NCBI GenBank assembly: GCA_015063285.1
Contig: SUST01000015.1
Coordinates: forward strand, 1-32,643
Source: Thermoplasmata archaeon
GTDB taxonomy: Archaea > Thermoplasmatota > Thermoplasmata > Methanomassiliicoccales > Methanomethylophilaceae
DNA length: 32,643 nt
Direction of reading: 5' to 3'
In this document: positions 221 through 32,183 of the stretch, piece by piece
How positions within the stretch are numbered: the first letter of the stretch is position 1
How the letters are laid out: every line of letters begins with the position of its first letter
Made by a program: the position numbers and the translations under genes
The notes under the pieces: generated by a model
The model's database searches: none
What the model was told of the DNA's origin: nothing
Seen by the model: only the letters and a program-made list of their open reading frames with translations

Positions 221-300
221 CTTTCGACCAAATACGATTATTTTTCGATTTTTTCGATTAAATACGATTTTTTATCTAAAAATACGATTAAATACGATTA
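221..300. repeat. 10-bp-period array of CGATT decamers upstream of the AlbA_2 gene
   Basis: Eight consecutive 10-bp positions carry a degenerate decamer with consensus AATACGATTA. CGATT cores start at 235, 246, 255, 265, 285 and 295, with a weaker CGACC at 225 and a TATCT at 275. The spacing is close to one helical turn, so all copies face the same side of the DNA. The last copies overlap a TTAAATA stretch (288-294) that could be the TATA box for a leaderless transcript of the gene starting at 317. It is best read as an operator for an oligomeric DNA-binding protein, probably the neighbouring gene product. Confidence 0.8.
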
Positions 301-316
301 TTTCATACAGTAGTGT

Positions 317-1561
317 ATGGCGGAAGACTTGCATACCGAATACAAATCAGAGTTCTCCGATAAGATTGCCAAGAGTGTAGTGGCATTCTCCAACGGGGAC
401 GGAGGAGTCATACTCATCGGTATCGATGATGACGGAAACATCATCGGATTGCACAATGCAGACGAGACTGCGCTCAAATGCGTCGGAATGCTTCATGACG
501 ATATTCGCCCAGATGTGACACCGACCACTTCTGTCGATGTCATCAAGATGGATGGAAAGGATATCATCGAGATCATTGTGCAGGAAGGAACGTCCAAACC
601 ATACTATCTAAGACAGAAAGGAATGCGTGCCGAAGGCGTATACATCCGTCGCGGCCCATCATCCACCCCCGCCACGGACGAACAGTTCAATCAGATGATA
701 CGCAGAGCACGTTCCAAAGAGTATGAATCACTCAGATCATTCAGACAAGACCTGACATTCACATACGCCGAGAACGTCTTCCACAGATCCGGATTGGCAT
801 TCGATGATGCACACATGAACATGCTCGGAATGATGGACCAGGACGGGTACACAAACCTGGGATTCCTCCTGTCCGACCAATGCGACTTCCAGATGAAAGC
901 CGCGGTCTTCATGGATGAACACAGGACCGGCTTCATCGACCGCCAGGAGATATCGGGCTCTCTTCTCAGACAGTACGATGATGCAATGATGTTCATCCGT
1001 AGGCACACCACCGTATCTTCGGAGATCGTCGGTACCAAGAGGAACGACCATTACGATTTCCCCACCGAGGCTGTCAGGGAGATCGTCCTTAACGCCATCA
1101 TCCACAGAGATTACACCTCCAGCGGTACCACCCTGATATCGATGTACGGTGACAAGCTGGAAATCGCCTCTCCGGGAACCATCATGGAGGACATCTCACG
1201 CGAAGACATGTTCAAAGGGGTCTCGTTCCCCCGCAACAGGAAGCTGTCAGAGGTCTTCTACAGACTGGGCCTCGTGGAAGCCTATGGCTCCGGAATCCCG
1301 CGTATAATGGGCATATACTCGGACTCGGAAAGACACCCGGAATTCGATATAACTCCGGCAGTATTCCGCGTTACTATCTATTCCAAGAACGGATTCAAGG
1401 ACATTTCCCTGAAGAAAGGAGATGTCCTGACCAGGTCCGACATTGAGGAACGCTTGGGCGTGAGCAAATCAAAAGCGACCATGATCGTCAACGAGATGGT
1501 CGACAATAACAAGCTGGAACGGATCGGTGTCGGGAAGTCAACGCGTTATGTGGTGCTCTGA
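317..1561 (+). CDS. AlbA_2 / ATP-binding winged-helix protein (COG2865-like)
   Basis: The 414-residue product starts with an AlbA_2 (Schlafen-like) domain: EYKSEF near residue 8, then the NGDGGVILIGIDDDG stretch. The middle and C-terminal half resembles the GHKL-type ATP-binding domain of COG2865 proteins (NAIIHRDY near 260, EAYGSGIPRI near 335). The last 45 residues form a likely winged helix (TRSDIEERLGVSKSKATMIV). Proteins of this build are usually annotated as predicted transcriptional regulators or putative DNA-binding proteins, and their biochemical role is mostly unknown. The ATG at 317 has no Shine-Dalgarno sequence and fits leaderless translation from a TATA box inside the repeat array. 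The gene converges on the ATPase gene that ends at 1578. Autoregulation through the 221-300 array is an inference from position. Confidence 0.8.
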   Translation: MAEDLHTEYKSEFSDKIAKSVVAFSNGDGGVILIGIDDDGNIIGLHNADETALKCVGMLHDDIRPDVTPTTSVDVIKMDGKDIIEIIVQEGTSKPYYLRQKGMRAEGVYIRRGPSSTPATDEQFNQMIRRARSKEYESLRSFRQDLTFTYAENVFHRSGLAFDDAHMNMLGMMDQDGYTNLGFLLSDQCDFQMKAAVFMDEHRTGFIDRQEISGSLLRQYDDAMMFIRRHTTVSSEIVGTKRNDHYDFPTEAVREIVLNAIIHRDYTSSGTTLISMYGDKLEIASPGTIMEDISREDMFKGVSFPRNRKLSEVFYRLGLVEAYGSGIPRIMGIYSDSERHPEFDITPAVFRVTIYSKNGFKDISLKKGDVLTRSDIEERLGVSKSKATMIVNEMVDNNKLERIGVGKSTRYVVL

Positions 1562-1577
1562 GTCTGAAGAACTACCC

Positions 1578-2945
1578 TCACTCGAACATATCTTTGGGCG
1601 TCACGAGCTCTATACCCGATGACTCCGCCACCTCCATCAGCTCATCGGTGAATCCCGAACGGGAGAACATGCAGTATCTGATGTTATAGCAGTTCTTCAG
1701 GGATGCCGTATTCTTCCTGAGCTCCTCGAACTCCCTCACACCGGCCTCCTTGTTGCGGAACTTGTATTCGCAGACCAGATGGTATTCGCCGTCACCGTCG
1801 TCACATAGCGCTATGATGTCGATATCGGTATGCTCCCCGGCAACCTTGCCCCACCAGGAACCCACCTCCTTGCAATGATGCTTGGATCTGACATACTGCA
1901 TGCATTCATCCTCGAAGGCAGGACCGTAGAAACTGCCGATCTCCTGCATAATCGCATTGTATCCGAAATCCCTGTCGGGATCCGATACGGCAGATATGTT
2001 GGGCAGTATGACATCGCTATGGAGCCTGATCAGCCCATCAGATACTCTAAAGAGCTGTTCCTTTCTCGGTGCCCCGCACATCGGATAGACCTTGGAGACG
2101 ATCCCGATCCTCTCCATCTTCGATAGATTGTTCAGACAGGATTCAGGACTCTGACCGATGTATTCCGCAATCTCCTTGATGGTGACGCGTCCCTTCGATA
2201 TGGCCCCGATTATCCTCAGATTGGTCTGGATGGGTGCAAGCTCGCGGATTACGGTATTATCTGCCTCCTCGCGCAGCGGCGCCAGTGGACCCAATAGAGA
2301 ATTCTTGATGCATTCCTCTGCTGTGTCCCCAGACATCAGTATGTGATAGAGCGGGACCCCTCCGGCTATGGCATACACCCTCAGGAGATCCTCCTCGCTC
2401 AATTTTGGATGGAATGCCCTGCATTCCTTGTATGGCAACGGCCCTACCGAAATGGGTCCGATGAAACGCTTGTACAGAGGGCCTTTGGTATCGTTGAATA
2501 TGTCTCCCATGACTGTCACGGCGGACCCGCAGATGATCAGCATAGCGTTCATGTCCTGGAGATCGTGATCTATGAAGATCTGCAGATACGAATTGCAGGC
2601 CGGTTCCGTCTCATACAAATAGGAGTACTCATCGATAACGATGACCATACGGTCATCCTCCCTATCCAATCCCCTGAAGCGCTCCAGGATATCCTGGAAT
2701 CCTCTGGAATGCGTCGGGCCTTCTCCCAGATACTTATCCAGGGACCTGTCGAAGGACTCTATGGATTTCTCGTAAGAATCCTCGACGGCGGTGAGGATCA
2801 CGTGCGGTTTGCCTTCGCAGAACTTCCTGATGATGGCGGTCTTACCGATACGTCTCCTTCCCCAGAGGGCCATGGTCCTGATCCCTCTGTTGGAATACCT
2901 CCTCTCCATCTCCTCGAGATAGATCTCTCTGCCGACCAATTCCAT
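1578..2945 (-). CDS. DUF234-type archaeal ATPase with nuclease-like C-terminus
   Basis: A 455-residue P-loop ATPase. It opens with the family-typical MELVGRE segment, has Walker A GRRRIGKT at residues 29-36 and Walker B VIVIDE at 101-106. A winged-helix region in the middle (about 240-290: VTIKEIAEYIGQSPESCLNNL) is followed by a C-terminal DUF234 domain with a PD-(D/E)XK-like pattern, DIDIIAL then EYKF. The ATG at 2945 is chosen over the in-frame ATGs at 2969 and 2966 because GGAAGGAAG lies just upstream and the protein then begins at the conserved motif. It resembles the gene at 25854 in domain order. Function is unknown: such proteins are often annotated simply as ATP-binding proteins. Twin palindromes (2981-3028) lie directly upstream. 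Confidence 0.85.
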   Translation of the reverse strand: MELVGREIYLEEMERRYSNRGIRTMALWGRRRIGKTAIIRKFCEGKPHVILTAVEDSYEKSIESFDRSLDKYLGEGPTHSRGFQDILERFRGLDREDDRMVIVIDEYSYLYETEPACNSYLQIFIDHDLQDMNAMLIICGSAVTVMGDIFNDTKGPLYKRFIGPISVGPLPYKECRAFHPKLSEEDLLRVYAIAGGVPLYHILMSGDTAEECIKNSLLGPLAPLREEADNTVIRELAPIQTNLRIIGAISKGRVTIKEIAEYIGQSPESCLNNLSKMERIGIVSKVYPMCGAPRKEQLFRVSDGLIRLHSDVILPNISAVSDPDRDFGYNAIMQEIGSFYGPAFEDECMQYVRSKHHCKEVGSWWGKVAGEHTDIDIIALCDDGDGEYHLVCEYKFRNKEAGVREFEELRKNTASLKNCYNIRYCMFSRSGFTDELMEVAESSGIELVTPKDMFE

Positions 2946-2980: not shown

Positions 2981-3028
2981 AACTAAATAAAAATTTAGTT
3001 AAATTATTTTACTAAAATTAATTTTAGT
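2981..3028. repeat. twin ACTAAA-N6-TTTAGT palindromes, 29 bp apart
   Basis: AACTAAAT and ATTTAGTT (2981-2988, 2993-3000) form a perfect 8-bp inverted repeat. The 18 bases at 3011-3028 are a perfect palindrome built from the same half-sites, ACTAAA and TTTAGT. In both copies the half-sites are separated by six bases, and the copies start 29 bp apart (2982, 3011). The proximal copy overlaps the AT-rich stretch that would serve as TATA box for the ATPase gene starting at 2945, so repression by a dimeric protein is plausible. Confidence 0.8.
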
Positions 3029-4590: not shown

Positions 4591-4613
4591 CTCCTTTATA
4601 TATTAAGCACCAA

Positions 4614-4699
4614 TATTTTAAGGACAGTGCAATTTTTCTGCTTATAACATTTTAAGGGTAGTGTAGAAATTGACCATAAAACATTTTAAGGACAGTGCA
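4614..4699. repeat. 18-mer direct repeat, three copies at exact 34-bp period
   Basis: TATTTTAAGGACAGTGCA (4614-4631), CATTTTAAGGGTAGTGTA (4648-4665) and CATTTTAAGGACAGTGCA (4682-4699) start exactly 34 bp apart. The 16-base gaps are not conserved. The third copy ends 11 bp before the ATG at 4711, and the array spans where the promoter must be, for example ATAAAACA at about 4677. The sequence is unlike the arrays in front of the other ATPase genes in this window. Confidence 0.85.
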
Positions 4700-4710
4700 T
4701 ATTATAGATT

Positions 4711-6048
4711 ATGGCGATGAAGAGGAAGATCTATTCGAAACTGCTCGAATGGAAGACGGAGAGCAACGGACAATCCGCATTGCTCATCGAAGGGGCCAGA
4801 CGTGTCGGCAAGAGCTTCATCGTCGAGGAATTCGGAAAAAACGAGTACGATTCCTACATTCTGATCAACTTCGGAAAGGTCGGGAAGGCATTCAGGGATC
4901 TGTTCGATGACCTATCTGACATCCCCTTAGTCCTTCAGAAGATCTCCAGCATGATGCGTGTCAAGCTGTATGAGCGCAGATCACTCATAATATTCGACGA
5001 AGCTCAGAAATTCCCCCGCGCCAGAGAAGCAATCAAATTCCTTGTCGCCGACGGCAGATACGACTACATAGAGACGGGCTCGCTCATCTCCATTCATGAG
5101 AACGTGAAGGACATCATCATCCCTTCCGAAGAGAAACGCATAAGGATGTACCCGATGGACTTCGAGGAGTTCTGCTGGGCCCTGGGCGATGAGACCACCG
5201 TTCCATTGATCAGGGAACATTTCGAAAAGAAACTGGCGCTCGGAAACGACCTGCACAAATCCATCATGGACCAATTCAGAAAGTACATGATAGTCGGAGG
5301 GATGCCAAAAGTTGTTGAGATATACGCTGCCACCCTCAATTTCGGAAAGGCGGAGGAACAGAAGAGGATGATCCTGGACCTCTACCGTGAAGACATCTCG
5401 AAAAAAGCCAAAGATAACAAACTGAGGACCATGAAGCTGTTCGAATCCATACCATCGGAGCTATCCAAACACGACAAGAGAGTAACGTTATCAGATATTG
5501 AGAAGCATGGCCGGATGAACAGCTTTGACGAACCTATCTACTGGCTGGAGGATTCGATGATAGCTAACGCTTGCTACAACTCCACCGTCCCCAGCGCGGG
5601 ACTGAATCTGAACACCGACCTGTCCTCGGTAAAGCTGTACATGGGCGATACTGGCCTGCTCGTAAGCCTGGCCATAAACGAGAACGAATCGATAGAGCAT
5701 GACATCTACGATTCCATCCTCAATGACAAGATGCATCTGAACGAGGGCATGTTCATGGAGAATATCGTCGCCCAGACCCTGAAGAGCAACGGACACAGGC
5801 TGTTCTTCCACACATTCTACAAGGACGACGGGAAGAACCGCTACGAGGTGGACTTCCTCGTGAGGCACGGGAAGAAGATCGATCCGATTGAGGTGAAATC
5901 CAGCGGTTATTCCAACCATTCCTCGCTGGACTACCTGATGAAGAAGCATTCCAAAACACTTGGGCAGCCATACGTCCTGTTCTCGAAGGATCTGAAGAAG
6001 GAAGGGAATGTCCTGTTCCTCCCGCTGTACATGGCGATATGCCTGTGA
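4711..6048 (+). CDS. AAA_14/DUF4143 ATPase with nuclease-like C-terminus
   Basis: A 445-residue P-loop ATPase. Walker A is EGARRVGKS (27-35) and Walker B is SLIIFDEAQ, with the family-typical YMIVGGMPKVVE in the middle. The C-terminal DUF4143 region has a PD-(D/E)XK-like pattern, YEVDFLV followed by PIEVKSSG. Proteins of this class are common and multicopy in gut bacteria and archaea, but their function is not established. Two in-frame starts exist (4711, 4717), both without a Shine-Dalgarno sequence, suggesting a leaderless message. It shares overall architecture with the next gene (6308), but each has its own upstream array. Both lie between the two GMP synthase subunit genes, which suggests they arrived as insertions. 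Confidence 0.88.
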   Translation: MAMKRKIYSKLLEWKTESNGQSALLIEGARRVGKSFIVEEFGKNEYDSYILINFGKVGKAFRDLFDDLSDIPLVLQKISSMMRVKLYERRSLIIFDEAQKFPRAREAIKFLVADGRYDYIETGSLISIHENVKDIIIPSEEKRIRMYPMDFEEFCWALGDETTVPLIREHFEKKLALGNDLHKSIMDQFRKYMIVGGMPKVVEIYAATLNFGKAEEQKRMILDLYREDISKKAKDNKLRTMKLFESIPSELSKHDKRVTLSDIEKHGRMNSFDEPIYWLEDSMIANACYNSTVPSAGLNLNTDLSSVKLYMGDTGLLVSLAINENESIEHDIYDSILNDKMHLNEGMFMENIVAQTLKSNGHRLFFHTFYKDDGKNRYEVDFLVRHGKKIDPIEVKSSGYSNHSSLDYLMKKHSKTLGQPYVLFSKDLKKEGNVLFLPLYMAICL

Positions 6049-6070: not shown

Positions 6071-6180
6071 TTTTATCCGGCTATAGACGGATAAAACCAT
6101 AATTCAAACATACTTTATCCTTCCATAGGAGGATAAAACCTCATTTTGGACGTGTTTTATCCTTCCATAAACGGATAAAA
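6071..6180. repeat. TTTATCC-N10-GGATAAA inverted repeat, three copies at exact 42-bp period
   Basis: TTTATCC starts at 6072, 6114 and 6156, and GGATAAA starts at 6089, 6131 and 6173. Each copy is a perfect inverted repeat with a 10-base spacer, and copies are exactly 42 bp apart, about four helical turns. The first copy extends to 9-bp arms (TTTTATCCG/CGGATAAAA). It starts 23 bp after the previous ATPase gene ends, so it could be read as a terminator, but three evenly spaced copies argue for protein binding sites. Confidence 0.85.
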
Positions 6181-6187
6181 ATTTGAT

Positions 6188-6300
6188 AAAACATGTATTT
6201 GAAGACCGTAAAATCCCTTCAAAACCTGTATTTGAAAGCCCGAAAAACTTGATAAAACATGTATTTGAAACTAATAAATACCTGTAAAAACATGTATCTG
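6188..6300. repeat. 16-mer direct repeat, four copies at exact 33-bp period
   Basis: AAAACATGTATTTGAA (6188), AAAACCTGTATTTGAA (6221), AAAACATGTATTTGAA (6254) and a truncated AAAACATGTATCTG (6287) start exactly 33 bp apart. A TATA-like AATAAATA (6273-6280) lies between copies three and four, so copy three abuts the promoter upstream and copy four covers the expected transcription start. The last copy ends 7 bp before the ATG at 6308. Binding should block or control this promoter. Confidence 0.85.
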
Positions 6301-6307
6301 CGATACG

Positions 6308-7666
6308 ATGGAAAGGCTTGCAATTAGGTATCTGGAACAGTGGATTGTATCCCCTGACAGGAAACCGCTCATTATTTGGGGGGCAAGACAGGTCGGCAAA
6401 ACATACCTCCTCCGTACCCTCTTCATGAAAGAGCACCCCAAGGCCCTATACATCGATCTAGCCAAGGATGAGGAAGCGAGATCGTTCTTCTCCACAACCT
6501 CCGACCCCGACAAGTATCTAAGATACATAGAGGCCCGCTACATGAAGAAGATAGGTCCGGACACGCCTCTGATATTCGATGAAATGCAGAGGTGCCTCTC
6601 AGTCCTCACATCCCTGAAATACTTCTGCCAAGAGCACAAGAAGATCCCCGTCATCGCTACGGGCTCCATGGTTAGACTGGCCATGATGGAGATGCAGAAG
6701 GAGAACAAGGATGACAGCTTCCTATTCCCCGTGGGCAGCGTCGACTCACTCGACCTCTACCCGCTTAATTTCGAAGAGTATCTCCTCAACGTCAACCCAG
6801 TGATGCTGGACCGCATTAGGGAATCATACAGATCCTGCAGACCTATGGAGAAGTACGAGCACGACCTTGCCACCGACCTCCTCCACGACTACATGTCGAT
6901 AGGGGGCATGCCGGAGGCCGTGGACAAGTTCATCAGAACGGGATCCTACGTGGATGTCTCCAAAACCCTGAGTTCCATCTACGACAACTATCTGGCGGAT
7001 ATGAGTCAATACAACATATCCCCGGAGATGATCCTTAAGACAAGGAAGGTCTACCAGAGCATCTTCTCCCAGCTGAACAAGGAGAACCGCAACTACAAGA
7101 TATCGCAGACTGACAAGGGAAAGACCAACCGGGACTATCAGAGCGCCTACATCTGGCTGGAGCTGGCCCGCGTAGTTCACAGGAGCCTTAACAAGACCGA
7201 CAAGGTCACCCTACCGCTGTCCGACTCCGACAGCAACCTTTTCAGGCTGTACCTGGGCGACATAGGGATGTTCACCTATCAGAGCGGGATCCCCTTCTCT
7301 GATTTCATCGCAAAGGACAAGAGAAACTCCCTCGCAGGAGTGTTCTACGAGAACTATGTCGCTGACGAGCTGGCCGCCAAGGGTATCGACCTCTACTACT
7401 GGACCGGAAAATCCCATCATGAATTCGAATTCATAGTCCCGAACCGCGGAAGGGTCGTTCCGATAGATGTGAAGAAGGGTTCGGGCACCATGAATTCCCT
7501 CAAGGCGTTCCGCGACCATAACCCAAAGGAGCTGGCGATAAAGGTCTCATCCAACAACTTCGGCTACGATGAGGAGAACATGATCCTCACCATTCCGCAT
7601 TACGCGATGTTCATGCTCGCGCAGGACCTCTCCGAGGATACTGACCCCGTCCTGGGATCCGAATAA
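6308..7666 (+). CDS. AAA_14/DUF4143 ATPase with nuclease-like C-terminus
   Basis: A 452-residue P-loop ATPase with Walker A WGARQVGKT (24-32), Walker B PLIFDEMQ, and the family motif YMSIGGMPEAVDKF. The C-terminus has the degenerate nuclease-fold pattern HEFEFIV then PIDVKKG, where the first acidic position is E-F-E rather than the usual E-V-D. It has the same domain order as the gene at 4711 but is clearly diverged from it. No Shine-Dalgarno sequence precedes the ATG, and the TATA position fits a very short leader. The gene is followed by the GMP synthase glutaminase subunit on the same strand. A role in genome defence or selfish maintenance is possible but unproven. Confidence 0.88.
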   Translation: MERLAIRYLEQWIVSPDRKPLIIWGARQVGKTYLLRTLFMKEHPKALYIDLAKDEEARSFFSTTSDPDKYLRYIEARYMKKIGPDTPLIFDEMQRCLSVLTSLKYFCQEHKKIPVIATGSMVRLAMMEMQKENKDDSFLFPVGSVDSLDLYPLNFEEYLLNVNPVMLDRIRESYRSCRPMEKYEHDLATDLLHDYMSIGGMPEAVDKFIRTGSYVDVSKTLSSIYDNYLADMSQYNISPEMILKTRKVYQSIFSQLNKENRNYKISQTDKGKTNRDYQSAYIWLELARVVHRSLNKTDKVTLPLSDSDSNLFRLYLGDIGMFTYQSGIPFSDFIAKDKRNSLAGVFYENYVADELAAKGIDLYYWTGKSHHEFEFIVPNRGRVVPIDVKKGSGTMNSLKAFRDHNPKELAIKVSSNNFGYDEENMILTIPHYAMFMLAQDLSEDTDPVLGSE

Positions 7667-21600: not shown

Positions 21601-21740
21601 TTCATTCACCTCGATACGTGCTGATACCCATCGCCAGCCGTAGTCGGTAATGAACCCCATTCTTATCCTAATTATATAATGATAAAGGAAAAGGCACCCC
21701 CATCCAGTTCTAAAACGGCGCGTAAAAAGATTATAATACA

Positions 21741-21770
21741 ATGTACGTACATAATATTATTAGTGATAAT
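21741..21770. promoter_or_regulatory. palindromic operator of the RelB/RelE pair
   Basis: ATGTACGTACAT (21741-21752) is a perfect 12-bp palindrome, followed by the palindrome ATAATATTAT (21751-21760) and an ATTAT-N5-ATAAT inverted repeat (21756-21770), all ending at the RelB ATG (21772). A TTATAATACA promoter element lies at 21731-21740. This is a typical place for antitoxin autoregulation. Confidence 0.55.
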
Positions 21771-21771
21771 A

Positions 21772-22089
21772 ATGAGCGATCTGCAGGTAGTAACAGCACC
21801 CAAGGACTACACTTATCAGCTGAGGATGAACAGTGAAATCAAAGCAGAATTGGAACGCATCTATGCAGAATGCGGAGTCACGTTATCAGATGCCATCAAC
21901 ATCTTCCTCCAGCAATCCTTAAACGAACACGGGTTCCCGTTCGCCGTTGTTTCAGACCAAACAGCATTCAAAAAGAAGAAGGTGCTCGATGAACTCCTGG
22001 AAATCCATATGAGAGGTATGCGTTCAGGATCCGAATATGGCTGGACGGACGACAGGGACATGGATGAGGAATTCGGAGGTTCTGAATGA
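21772..22089 (+). CDS. RelB/DinJ-type antitoxin
   Basis: A 105-residue antitoxin with a ribbon-helix-helix N-terminus (TYQLRMNSEIKAELERIYAECGVTLSDAINIFLQQSL, landmarks T15 to L50) as in RelB/DinJ, then NEHGFPFAV and a charged, probably disordered C-terminus that would neutralise the toxin. The ATG at 21772 has no Shine-Dalgarno sequence. Its stop overlaps the toxin start as ATGA, showing translational coupling. It likely represses its own promoter through the palindromes at 21741-21770. Confidence 0.82.
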   Translation: MSDLQVVTAPKDYTYQLRMNSEIKAELERIYAECGVTLSDAINIFLQQSLNEHGFPFAVVSDQTAFKKKKVLDELLEIHMRGMRSGSEYGWTDDRDMDEEFGGSE

Positions 22090-22382
22090 ACATCCTCTAT
22101 TCCCATGAGGCCAAAATTAGGATCAGAAACATTCGCTGCAATCTACCTCCGAAATACTCAGAAAGCATCCTGAATGAAATCAGAGAGGGCTGTCGCAGAT
22201 TGTCTGATTTCGCTGATTTGGGCTATATATTGGAAGAATCGGGAGCTATTCCGGTAAGAGTGCTCTTGGTGAAAGGATATGCCATCCTCTACGAACATGA
22301 TGATGAATCAGTCTACATCTCTGCAATTGAACCAATGAAATCAGACTGGATAGAAGTCTTCAATTTGAATGAACGTGAATAA
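22086..22382 (+). CDS. RelE/ParE-type toxin
   Basis: A 98-residue protein in the typical toxin position, overlapping the RelB-type gene by four bases. Features of the RelE/ParE superfamily are the helical hairpin at the N-terminus (MNILYSHEAKIRIRNI), LSDFADLGYI, and the beta strands VRVLLVKGYAILYEHDDESVYISAI. The length is normal. Family members are mostly ribosome-dependent mRNA nucleases, though catalytic residues vary and I cannot confirm activity. A radical SAM gene follows 17 bp downstream on the same strand and may be partly co-transcribed. Confidence 0.75.
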   Translation: MNILYSHEAKIRIRNIRCNLPPKYSESILNEIREGCRRLSDFADLGYILEESGAIPVRVLLVKGYAILYEHDDESVYISAIEPMKSDWIEVFNLNERE

Positions 22383-25771: not shown

Positions 25772-25818
25772 TACTTCAGAATTTGAAGTAAAATGTTTTT
25801 ACTTCATTATTTGAAGTA
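25772..25818. repeat. twin TACTTCA-N5-TGAAGTA inverted repeats, 28 bp apart
   Basis: TACTTCA and TGAAGTA occur at 25772-25778/25784-25790 and again at 25800-25806/25812-25818. Both copies are perfect 7-bp inverted repeats with a 5-base spacer, starting 28 bp apart. The second copy lies directly upstream of a TATA-like ATTATAAAC (25824-25832) that would give a leaderless message for the ATPase gene starting at 25854. The architecture parallels the twin palindromes of the other DUF234-type ATPase (2981-3028), but the sequence differs. Confidence 0.85.
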
Positions 25819-25853: not shown

Positions 25854-27281
25854 ATGGAATTCATAGGTCGCAAGAAGGAACTCGATCGTCTGCAAAACGT
25901 ATGGGAGAAGAACCGCTACAAGACCTGCGCCATATACGGCAGAAGGAGGATTGGCAAGACCACTTTGATCGAAGAATTCATCAAAGACAAGAATAACATC
26001 TCATTCTCCATGGTCAAAGGCACCTATGAGGAGAACGTCCAAAGGATGGCCTATGAGTTAATCGAAAAAGGGGAATCGGTCGAAAAACCTGAGCTTTACT
26101 TCGTTATGAAAGCATTGAAAGCAATATGTGTGAGGGAGAAAACAGTCATCGTATTCGATGAACTTCCCAATTTAACGCAGAACAAGGAGTCAGCTGCTTC
26201 GGAACTCCAGTTCTTCATAGATTGGATGGTGGATAACAGCGATTCTATGTGCATAATATGCGGTTCATCCATCTCCCTGATGATAAACGAAATAAAGAAC
26301 TCCTCAAAACCACTCTACCAAAGATTCATGTGCATAATCGAGCTGGGGCCGCTAACCATAGATGAGGTGCGCTGTTTCCATCCGAATATGGATGATAGGG
26401 ACCTTCTCAGGACCTATCTCATCCTAGGCGGCATCCCTCTGTACCATGAAAGCGCCAGAGGTCTTGACTTCAAAAGTATGATTGATGATTACGTACTCAG
26501 CAAAACCAGCAACTTCAATGAGGATGCGACCAACATCATCATGGTGGAGATGGGGACGTTGGGAATTCCTTCACTGTCAGTCTTGAATGCATTGAGCAAC
26601 GGTTCAGTGAGGTTCACAGAGATAGCGTCTGTAACCAAACTCTCTGATCGGATGGTCAGCAGATGTTTGGAAGGTCTCGAATCGATGAGACTTGTCTCCA
26701 AAAAACATCTCATGTGCGCAAATAGCAAACATCCTACATACATGATAACAGACAGCCCCATGGCATTCCATTACAGGATCGTAAGGAGATACTCTCCAAT
26801 TACTGCAACGAACGCCTCCAAATACGATTCTATGCATCAGCTGATATCATCATTCCTGGGAAGCCAATTTGAGGTTTATTGCAAAGACCTCGTAGCCAGG
26901 AATTATCCATGTTCAGAGATTGGTAGCTGGTGGGGCTCTGTCCCGGTCAGAGACTATGACGGTCAAATAATGAAAGACGGGAACGGGAAGACGATAACAG
27001 AGGATGTGGACATCGACCTGATCGCCACCGTCCGCAAAGGCAACAACCGCATAGACCTATTCGGAGAATGCAAATTCGATGGCAGCGAGGCCGATATTTC
27101 AGTATTTAACAAACTAAATGTGAGGGTCGAATCGCTGAGCGGAGGTTACAATCCACGTCTGATGATCATCGCTGTGAATGGGTTCGAGGAAGAACTATTG
27201 AACTATGCAAGCGCAGGATTGGTACTGCTTGTGAATCTGGACATGATAGTAGGAAAGGCCCCGCTTCCCGAGTTACCATAA
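25854..27281 (+). CDS. DUF234-type archaeal ATPase with nuclease-like C-terminus
   Basis: A 475-residue P-loop ATPase starting MEFIGRKKEL. Walker A is GRRRIGKT (29-36), identical to that of the gene at 1578, and Walker B is VIVFDELPN. A central winged helix (VRFTEIASVTKLSDRMVSRCLEGL region) is followed by a C-terminal DUF234 nuclease-like domain: EIGSWWGS, DVDIDLIATV and LFGECKF give a D-x-D plus E-x-K pattern. The EVGSWWGKV/EIGSWWGSV landmark is shared with the 1578 gene, confirming they are paralogues. It has no gene partner; priL lies upstream and the phospholipid gene is convergent downstream. Confidence 0.88.
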   Translation: MEFIGRKKELDRLQNVWEKNRYKTCAIYGRRRIGKTTLIEEFIKDKNNISFSMVKGTYEENVQRMAYELIEKGESVEKPELYFVMKALKAICVREKTVIVFDELPNLTQNKESAASELQFFIDWMVDNSDSMCIICGSSISLMINEIKNSSKPLYQRFMCIIELGPLTIDEVRCFHPNMDDRDLLRTYLILGGIPLYHESARGLDFKSMIDDYVLSKTSNFNEDATNIIMVEMGTLGIPSLSVLNALSNGSVRFTEIASVTKLSDRMVSRCLEGLESMRLVSKKHLMCANSKHPTYMITDSPMAFHYRIVRRYSPITATNASKYDSMHQLISSFLGSQFEVYCKDLVARNYPCSEIGSWWGSVPVRDYDGQIMKDGNGKTITEDVDIDLIATVRKGNNRIDLFGECKFDGSEADISVFNKLNVRVESLSGGYNPRLMIIAVNGFEEELLNYASAGLVLLVNLDMIVGKAPLPELP

Positions 27282-31404: not shown

Positions 31405-31510
31405 TGAAATCTTTCTCCGATTGAACACATTATTTCCCTATCGTAGATAAACATGTACCGATACCATCCTCTTGCTGGCTGTACAGTAGCAGATATCGAT
31501 TATGAATATA

Positions 31511-31565
31511 CATCAATTGATGATGAATTATCAGCAAATATCTATATATTTTCATCATATGCTGA
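31511..31565. promoter_or_regulatory. interleaved inverted repeats around the RelB-PemK promoter
   Basis: CATCAATTGATG (31511-31522) is a perfect palindrome. ATGATGAA (31520-31527) pairs with TTCATCAT (31551-31558), and TCAGCA (31531-31536) with TGCTGA (31560-31565), so two inverted repeats interleave across the TATA element TCTATATATT (31541-31550). The TATA box is 25 bp from the ATG at 31571, implying a leaderless message. This is a likely autoregulatory operator. Confidence 0.55.
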
Positions 31566-31570
31566 TTATT

Positions 31571-31855
31571 ATGAAAGAAGCGAGTATAACGGTACGGATC
31601 AGTCCAGAATTCAAACAGAAGTGTGACAGTCTGTTTAATCAGCTTGGGATGAATACATCTGCTGCTATCAGTATATTCCTCCATCAAGCGGTCAGAGATC
31701 AATCAATGCCGTTCACCCCTTCCCTCAGAACACTGGACCAGGACGGTATCGCATCCAAACTGCCGGTCGTAGGGCGCTTCGATGAATCAGGGAACACGAT
31801 TCTCCCTTCCGAACTGGACAACCCGGAAGATGATGTATACGAACAGCTCCTGTAA
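31571..31855 (+). CDS. RelB/DinJ-type antitoxin
   Basis: A 94-residue antitoxin with a ribbon-helix-helix N-terminus (ASITVRISPEFKQKCDSLFN, then MNTSAAISIFLHQAVRDQSMPF) of RelB/DinJ type and a polar C-terminal tail. The ATG at 31571 fits a leaderless message. The toxin start lies inside its last 26 bases. It is related in plan to the antitoxin at 21772, but is paired with a different toxin fold. Confidence 0.83.
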   Translation: MKEASITVRISPEFKQKCDSLFNQLGMNTSAAISIFLHQAVRDQSMPFTPSLRTLDQDGIASKLPVVGRFDESGNTILPSELDNPEDDVYEQLL

Positions 31856-32183
31856 ATTCAGAAAATGGGATGTTTGGCTGGCCGACGTAAGATTTGAAAG
31901 CGATCCCAGCAAAAGCAAGATCAGACCTGTGGCCATCATCGAAGAAAAGGAAGTCTATGTGCTGTCTGTGCAGATAACATCCCACGAACCTCGCAAATTC
32001 CTTGAGGGAGAATACCAGATACAGTTTTGGGAATATGCTGGATTGGTGAAACCTTCAACTCTTCAATTAGGGCAGTTGATCAAAATCAAAGAAAAACACC
32101 TCCTAAAAAGAATCGGAAGGCTTCATGATATCGATATCAGGAATATCTTGGAGATTCTGCGTGAAAGCATTGTCGCGAACTGA
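31833..32183 (+). CDS. PemK/MazF-like toxin
   Basis: A 116-residue protein with the start of the PemK/MazF fold: RKWDVWLADVRFE, then SKSKIRPVAIIEEKEVYVLSVQITSHEPR, where the K-x-RP-V motif after the first strand is typical. It is followed by LVKPSTLQLGQLIKIKEK and a C-terminal helix. Family members are sequence-specific mRNA endonucleases. In-frame ATGs at 31830 and 31833 both lie in the antitoxin end, behind CCGGAAG. Antitoxin family RelB/DinJ with a PemK/MazF-like toxin is a mixed pairing. Confidence 0.75.
   Translation: MYTNSSCKFRKWDVWLADVRFESDPSKSKIRPVAIIEEKEVYVLSVQITSHEPRKFLEGEYQIQFWEYAGLVKPSTLQLGQLIKIKEKHLLKRIGRLHDIDIRNILEILRESIVAN

Follow-up and report, generated by a model that had tools for sequence, protein, structure and literature searches.

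Orc1/Cdc6 initiators have origin repeats beside their gene. RptR, the autorepressor of a defence island, represses its own promoter via three direct repeats, each with a short palindrome (PMC12255303). According to a published account, PDC-S01 and PDC-S27 are ATPase plus PD-(D/E)XK proteins abundant in archaea, PDC-S01 being the fourth commonest defence across prokaryotes; PDCs are phage-defence candidates, most of which still await validation (PMC12988326). The window, that is, the whole 32,643-nucleotide stretch of archaeal DNA analysed here, carries two paralogous PDC-S27 genes, each preceded by a pair of palindromes (dyads) found nowhere else in the genome. We propose, with a probability of roughly 75%, that such palindrome pairs and the related arrays are self-specific autoregulatory operators of the gene downstream.

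Twin dyads at two paralogous ATPase genes

1578 to 2945, minus strand: DUF234-type ATPase (ATPase_2, winged helix and PD-(D/E)XK-like DUF234 domain), PADLOC PDC-S27, from profiles
2982 to 2999, unstranded: dyad 1 of the putative operator of the 1578 gene, ACTAAA-N6-TTTAGT, ACTAAATAAAAATTTAGT, genome-unique pattern
3011 to 3028, unstranded: dyad 2 of the same putative operator, ACTAAA-N6-TTTAGT, ACTAAAATTAATTTTAGT, genome-unique pattern
25772 to 25790, unstranded: dyad 1 of the putative operator of the 25854 gene, TACTTCA-N5-TGAAGTA, TACTTCAGAATTTGAAGTA, genome-unique pattern
25800 to 25818, unstranded: dyad 2 of the same putative operator, TACTTCA-N5-TGAAGTA, TACTTCATTATTTGAAGTA, genome-unique pattern
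25854 to 27281, plus strand: paralogous DUF234-type ATPase, PDC-S27, from profiles, with an AlphaFold2 model (pLDDT 94)

As claimed in the initial annotation, ACTAAA-N6-TTTAGT is found twice upstream of the minus-strand ATPase, 29 bp from start to start, and TACTTCA-N5-TGAAGTA twice upstream of its plus-strand paralogue, 28 bp from start to start. In both pairs the stretch between the dyads forms a further imperfect dyad, giving an alternation of half-sites with a pitch of about 14-14.5 bp. Each pattern has two matches in the window, against 0.02 and 0.06 expected by chance, respectively (counted with up to one mismatch for the former and up to two for the latter); no shuffled window contained two matches to either pattern, and a search of the whole genome (1.79 Mb) returned no further site of either. 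The promoter of the 1578 gene is very AT-rich, and its generic dyad/repeat score reaches only p ~0.03 against local shuffles. The strength of these dyads lies in their two exact copies, their uniqueness in the genome and the family-wide pattern described below, not in the generic score.

The 1578 gene lies in an open reading frame spanning 1578-2969 and its start is uncertain (2945 or 2969), homologues pointing to 2945. Its product and that of the 25854 gene are paralogues with 31% identity, and both match, by profile, ATPase_2 (PF01637; 57.6 and 72.1 bits against a cut-off of 33.2), a helix-turn-helix (HTH_24/HxlR) and DUF234 (PF03008; 35.5 and 24.7 bits against a cut-off of 22.5), as well as the PADLOC profile PDC-S27 (E values of 7e-38 and 5e-47). 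In the model of the 25854 protein, an AAA+ domain and a C-terminal domain are accompanied by a winged helix at approximately residues 220-298, including helices 254-261 and 265-277 with a wing at 281-298. Its D388 and K407 show no variation among 45 diverse homologues, as expected of a PD-(D/E)XK enzyme. Among solved structures, those nearest to this model belong to the archaeal ATPases 2qen and 2fna; origin-bound Orc1/Cdc6 and proteins of the NLR/Apaf-1 type come next, and a MalT-system complex is also among the matches.

Arrays across the ATPase families

Three further genes of the window have arrays of their own:

225 to 303, plus strand: three direct repeats, CGATTAAATACGATTATTT, period 30 bp, preceding the 317 gene
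317 to 1561, plus strand: SLFN_AlbA_2/HATPase/HTH protein with its own array, a different family in a like arrangement
4612 to 4699, plus strand: three direct repeats, AACATTTTAAGGACAGTGCA, period 34 bp, preceding the 4711 gene
4711 to 6048, plus strand: AAA_14/DUF4143 ATPase, PDC-S01, 33-bp clade, from profiles and tree
6188 to 6301, plus strand: direct repeats with core AAAACATGTATTTG, period 33 bp, preceding the 6308 gene
6308 to 7666, plus strand: AAA_14/DUF4143 ATPase, PDC-S01, 33-bp clade, from profiles, tree and model

The two DUF4143 genes are assigned to PDC-S01 by the PADLOC profiles, and in the model of the 6308 protein (pLDDT 83) the AAA domain is likewise separated from the nuclease-like domain by helices and a wing. 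In both ATPase families, an AAA+ domain, a winged helix and a PD-(D/E)XK-like domain occur together. The SLFN_AlbA_2/HATPase proteins may be a third family under the same rule. One more array, at 6071-6180, comprises three dyads TTTATCC-N10-GGATAAA with a 42-bp period, their exact sites being unique in the genome; this period is that of the 40-bp clade, yet the gene downstream (6308), which is preceded by an array of its own, belongs to the 33-bp clade. It is an orphan array, perhaps the remnant of a lost gene. The window also contains two toxin-antitoxin pairs recognised by Pfam, at 21679-22382 and 31502-32183 (RelB/ParE and RelB/PemK).

The twin architecture pointed out in the initial annotation is real, but it is not limited to the twin and extends to a wider set of genes. 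Searches of the genome, followed up in the stretches around the hits, found five DUF234-type (PDC-S27) and seven DUF4143 (PDC-S01) ATPase genes, and all 12 have their own promoter array or dyad, with at least one score at p 0.03 or better. One array consists of four copies of AAACTACCGAAC, with no exact copies elsewhere in the genome, and another of three near-identical copies of GTAAAGTATACTTTAC. When the window's genome and its relatives are considered (a redundant set of 153 ATPases), direct repeats with z>3 precede 40% of the DUF234 genes and 69% of those for DUF4143 proteins; among 252 control genes the figure is 7%. In the non-redundant set (129 clusters at 70% identity), an array or dyad is found for 59% of DUF234 and 79% of DUF4143 clusters, compared with 10% of the 252 control genes; the clusters with no detectable array or dyad at z>3 (41% and 21%, respectively) are explained in part by wrong start calls. 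Members of another DUF4143 clade (L073-L079, L122, L242, L247) often have a single long promoter dyad, such as GGAGTTCAACTCC, and no array.

The AT-richness of the 1578 promoter and its modest local score would suit chance dyads of intergenic DNA, or RNA hairpins and terminators. We find such an origin scarcely credible, given the enrichment over control genes and over dinucleotide-keeping shuffles, the quantised periods described below and the direct repeats, which form no hairpin; chance dyads are rejected on the controls and contradicted by the family-wide statistics. A CRISPR array was also considered and ruled out, since the stretches between the cores repeat too in many arrays (e.g. L140, L095).

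The repeat period is fixed by the clade of the protein (23, 28, 33 or 40 bp). The periods fall into classes of 27-29 bp for DUF234 and of 23-24 (or 46-48), 32-34 and 39-42 bp for DUF4143, and a tree of 95 proteins accommodates them with 4 changes, against 49 with shuffled labels (minimum 40). The array sequence, for its part, is private to each gene: copies within one array are on average 86% identical, and the identity of units between genes is near the baseline given by shuffled units (0.45/0.42, 0.50/0.48, 0.43/0.42 and 0.30/0.28, by clade). The 1578 gene and L012, which share one genome and encode proteins 48% identical, both have a 29-bp period and different sites. In most clades, units are more alike where the proteins are more nearly identical (Mantel test), and several relatives of the 25854 gene keep the outer TTTAC...GTAAA while the inner letters vary. 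The initial annotation described the operators of the paralogues as unrelated in sequence; this applies to distant paralogues, whereas close relatives have operator cores in common. The initial annotation proposed a comparison of recognition residues; in domain-by-domain partial Mantel tests of whether operator change tracks the recognition helix, the winged helix gave a p of 0.056 in one DUF4143 clade and no signal in DUF234. Upstream of the DUF4143 gene L144, two versions of a 23-bp unit lie adjacent in one array, which differs from that of the 94%-identical relative L093; this is possibly an operator in the course of change.

The same arrangement is observed outside this archaeal group. Of DUF234 homologues, the majority of them from Bacillota, Actinomycetota and Spirochaetota and a few from other archaea, 60% have promoter dyads (z>3) against 9% of neighbouring genes (p=5e-17), and the bacterial dyads often have a 15-bp half-site pitch. 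Among DUF4143 homologues from virus-classified contigs of IMG/VR, the best lag is 32/33 bp in eight of nine promoters and 66 in the ninth, two of the nine being near-identical so that the independent count is slightly lower; shuffles of these promoters gave a lag of 32/33 in 4.9%. A Bacteroides ovatus plasmid encodes a homologue that shares 54% identity with the archaeal protein L001 and is preceded by three 23-bp copies of AAGCCAAACTGCCGAATAATATT, and the core AAACTNCCGAA is common to this array and that of L001. For the homologue of the 6308 protein on a Bacteroides cellulosilyticus plasmid, an 18-mer occurs twice, 66 bp apart. As the promoter machineries of archaea and Bacteroides differ, the encoded protein itself is the simplest common reader. 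The arrays could instead be read by other trans-acting regulators, as the orphan 40-bp-type array in front of a 33-bp-clade gene might suggest. This is very improbable, because the period tracks the clade of the ATPase itself, because the rule spans archaea, bacteria and plasmids with differing regulators, and because the three arrays tried as exact patterns lack other genomic sites.

Candidate autoregulation and alternative roles

These data lend weight to the idea, put forward in the initial annotation, of self-specific operators that diverged together with their proteins. The sites are unique in the genome, each of the 12 ATPase genes has its own array or dyad, a clade-fixed period goes with a private sequence and the protein contains a winged helix; moreover, the rule recurs in bacterial, plasmid and virus-classified homologues, and operator similarity climbs with protein identity in most clades. 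The encoded ATPase is likely to bind its own array. Binding would take place via the winged helix between the AAA+ and PD-(D/E)XK-like domains, and would involve a multimer whose geometry sets the half-site spacing, with a step of about 14 bp in archaeal and about 15 bp in bacterial DUF234 proteins and of 23, 33 or 40 bp in the DUF4143 clades. After duplication, the specificities of paralogue and site would have diverged together, and a specificity of its own for each paralogue would allow many copies to coexist in one genome without cross-regulation.

Array position taken alone is compatible with autorepression and with autoactivation. The median distance from the end of the array to the start codon is 27-30 bp, and the arrays lie mostly just upstream of the TATA region; a crude TATA scan gave a diffuse signal. 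Judged by eye, the proximal dyad of the 1578 gene appears to overlie the probable TATA position, and in bacteria several dyads overlap sequences that resemble a -35 promoter element. Because the array lies at the promoter or abuts it, binding most probably turns off the gene (autorepression); repression, as opposed to activation, is moderately likely. Expression of a nuclease-like and potentially harmful protein would in this way be held at a low set-point, and would be released when the protein is disturbed, for instance by an invader. A location mostly just upstream of TATA would also fit a self-activation site (enhancer), at which an ATP-bound multimer recruits the transcription machinery in the style of MalT-type STAND proteins. 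The STAND-ATPase-like fold and the MalT-system complex among the structural matches are in line with such a role, as is the case of IniR, whose ATPase domain is like SSO1545 and which is needed to induce its target operon (PMC5760070). The apparent coverage of TATA at the 1578 gene and of -35-like sequences in bacteria suits repression, and we regard self-activation as possible but unlikely.

Structural resemblance both to origin-bound Orc1/Cdc6 and to NLR resistosomes raises another possibility, namely that the array is a parking or assembly address for a non-transcriptional job, such as a defence self-marker or sensor, or an Orc1/Cdc6-like loading site, and that promoter proximity is secondary. 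The invariant PD-(D/E)XK-like residues and the status of PDC-S01 and PDC-S27 as defence candidates would agree with this; however, almost all of the arrays are placed directly at the promoter and their units vary by gene with no ORB-type conserved motif, which makes such an address doubtful. A replication origin was rejected as the main reading: no common ORB motif was found, unit sequences differing between genes, the profile searches of the ATPases returned no Orc1/Cdc6 match, and there are about a dozen copies per genome.

Autoregulation might also be one aspect of a further scheme, in which every ATPase-nuclease would form a clade-specific multimer on a private array of its own, with the nuclease held idle, until an invader that disturbs the array or the complex frees the enzyme. 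The invader would act by titrating, unwinding or copying the array, or by disturbing the complex. We consider this scheme speculative and rather unlikely; it is the family label of these ATPases that suggests a role in defence. If it were true, the private sequences would be diversified self-addresses by which a dozen paralogues avoid mutual interference. Under the preferred autoregulatory reading, a private phased array at most members names the probable DNA target of each protein, and the arrays predict oligomer geometry clade by clade. They also make up a large natural collection of protein-site pairs from which to learn how winged-helix specificity changes after duplication, and they could serve to locate further family members and true start codons.

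Comparison with described systems

By profile, the ATPase genes of the window belong to PDC-S27 and PDC-S01, the single-gene phage-defence candidates of PADLOC. Promoter arrays go without mention in the available part of the account of these families (PMC12988326), and the arrays with their clade-fixed spacing are new here. Likewise, no report of promoter arrays was found in the accessible literature on DUF234, DUF4143, COG1672 and PDC-S01/S27, a coverage that leaves out most subscription journals. The nearest known regulation is that of RptR, also a defence-linked protein with repeats at its own promoter. RptR, however, is small and acts as a dedicated repressor at a conserved TAGCTA site (PMC12255303), whereas here the ATPase-nuclease would itself be the regulator and paralogues have different sites. 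With Orc1/Cdc6 these ATPases have in common the AAA+ and winged-helix domains, structural similarity and repeats beside the gene; they differ in their extra nuclease-like domain, their dozen copies per genome and the lack of a common motif. The STAND factors MalT and IniR offer a parallel for a STAND-like ATPase as a DNA-directed regulator, a putative function in the present case, but they act on target operons, whereas the sites tried here occur only at the protein's own gene. Autoregulated operators are thus of a known kind, and it is the scale, the clade-phased geometry and the private sequences that are notable here.
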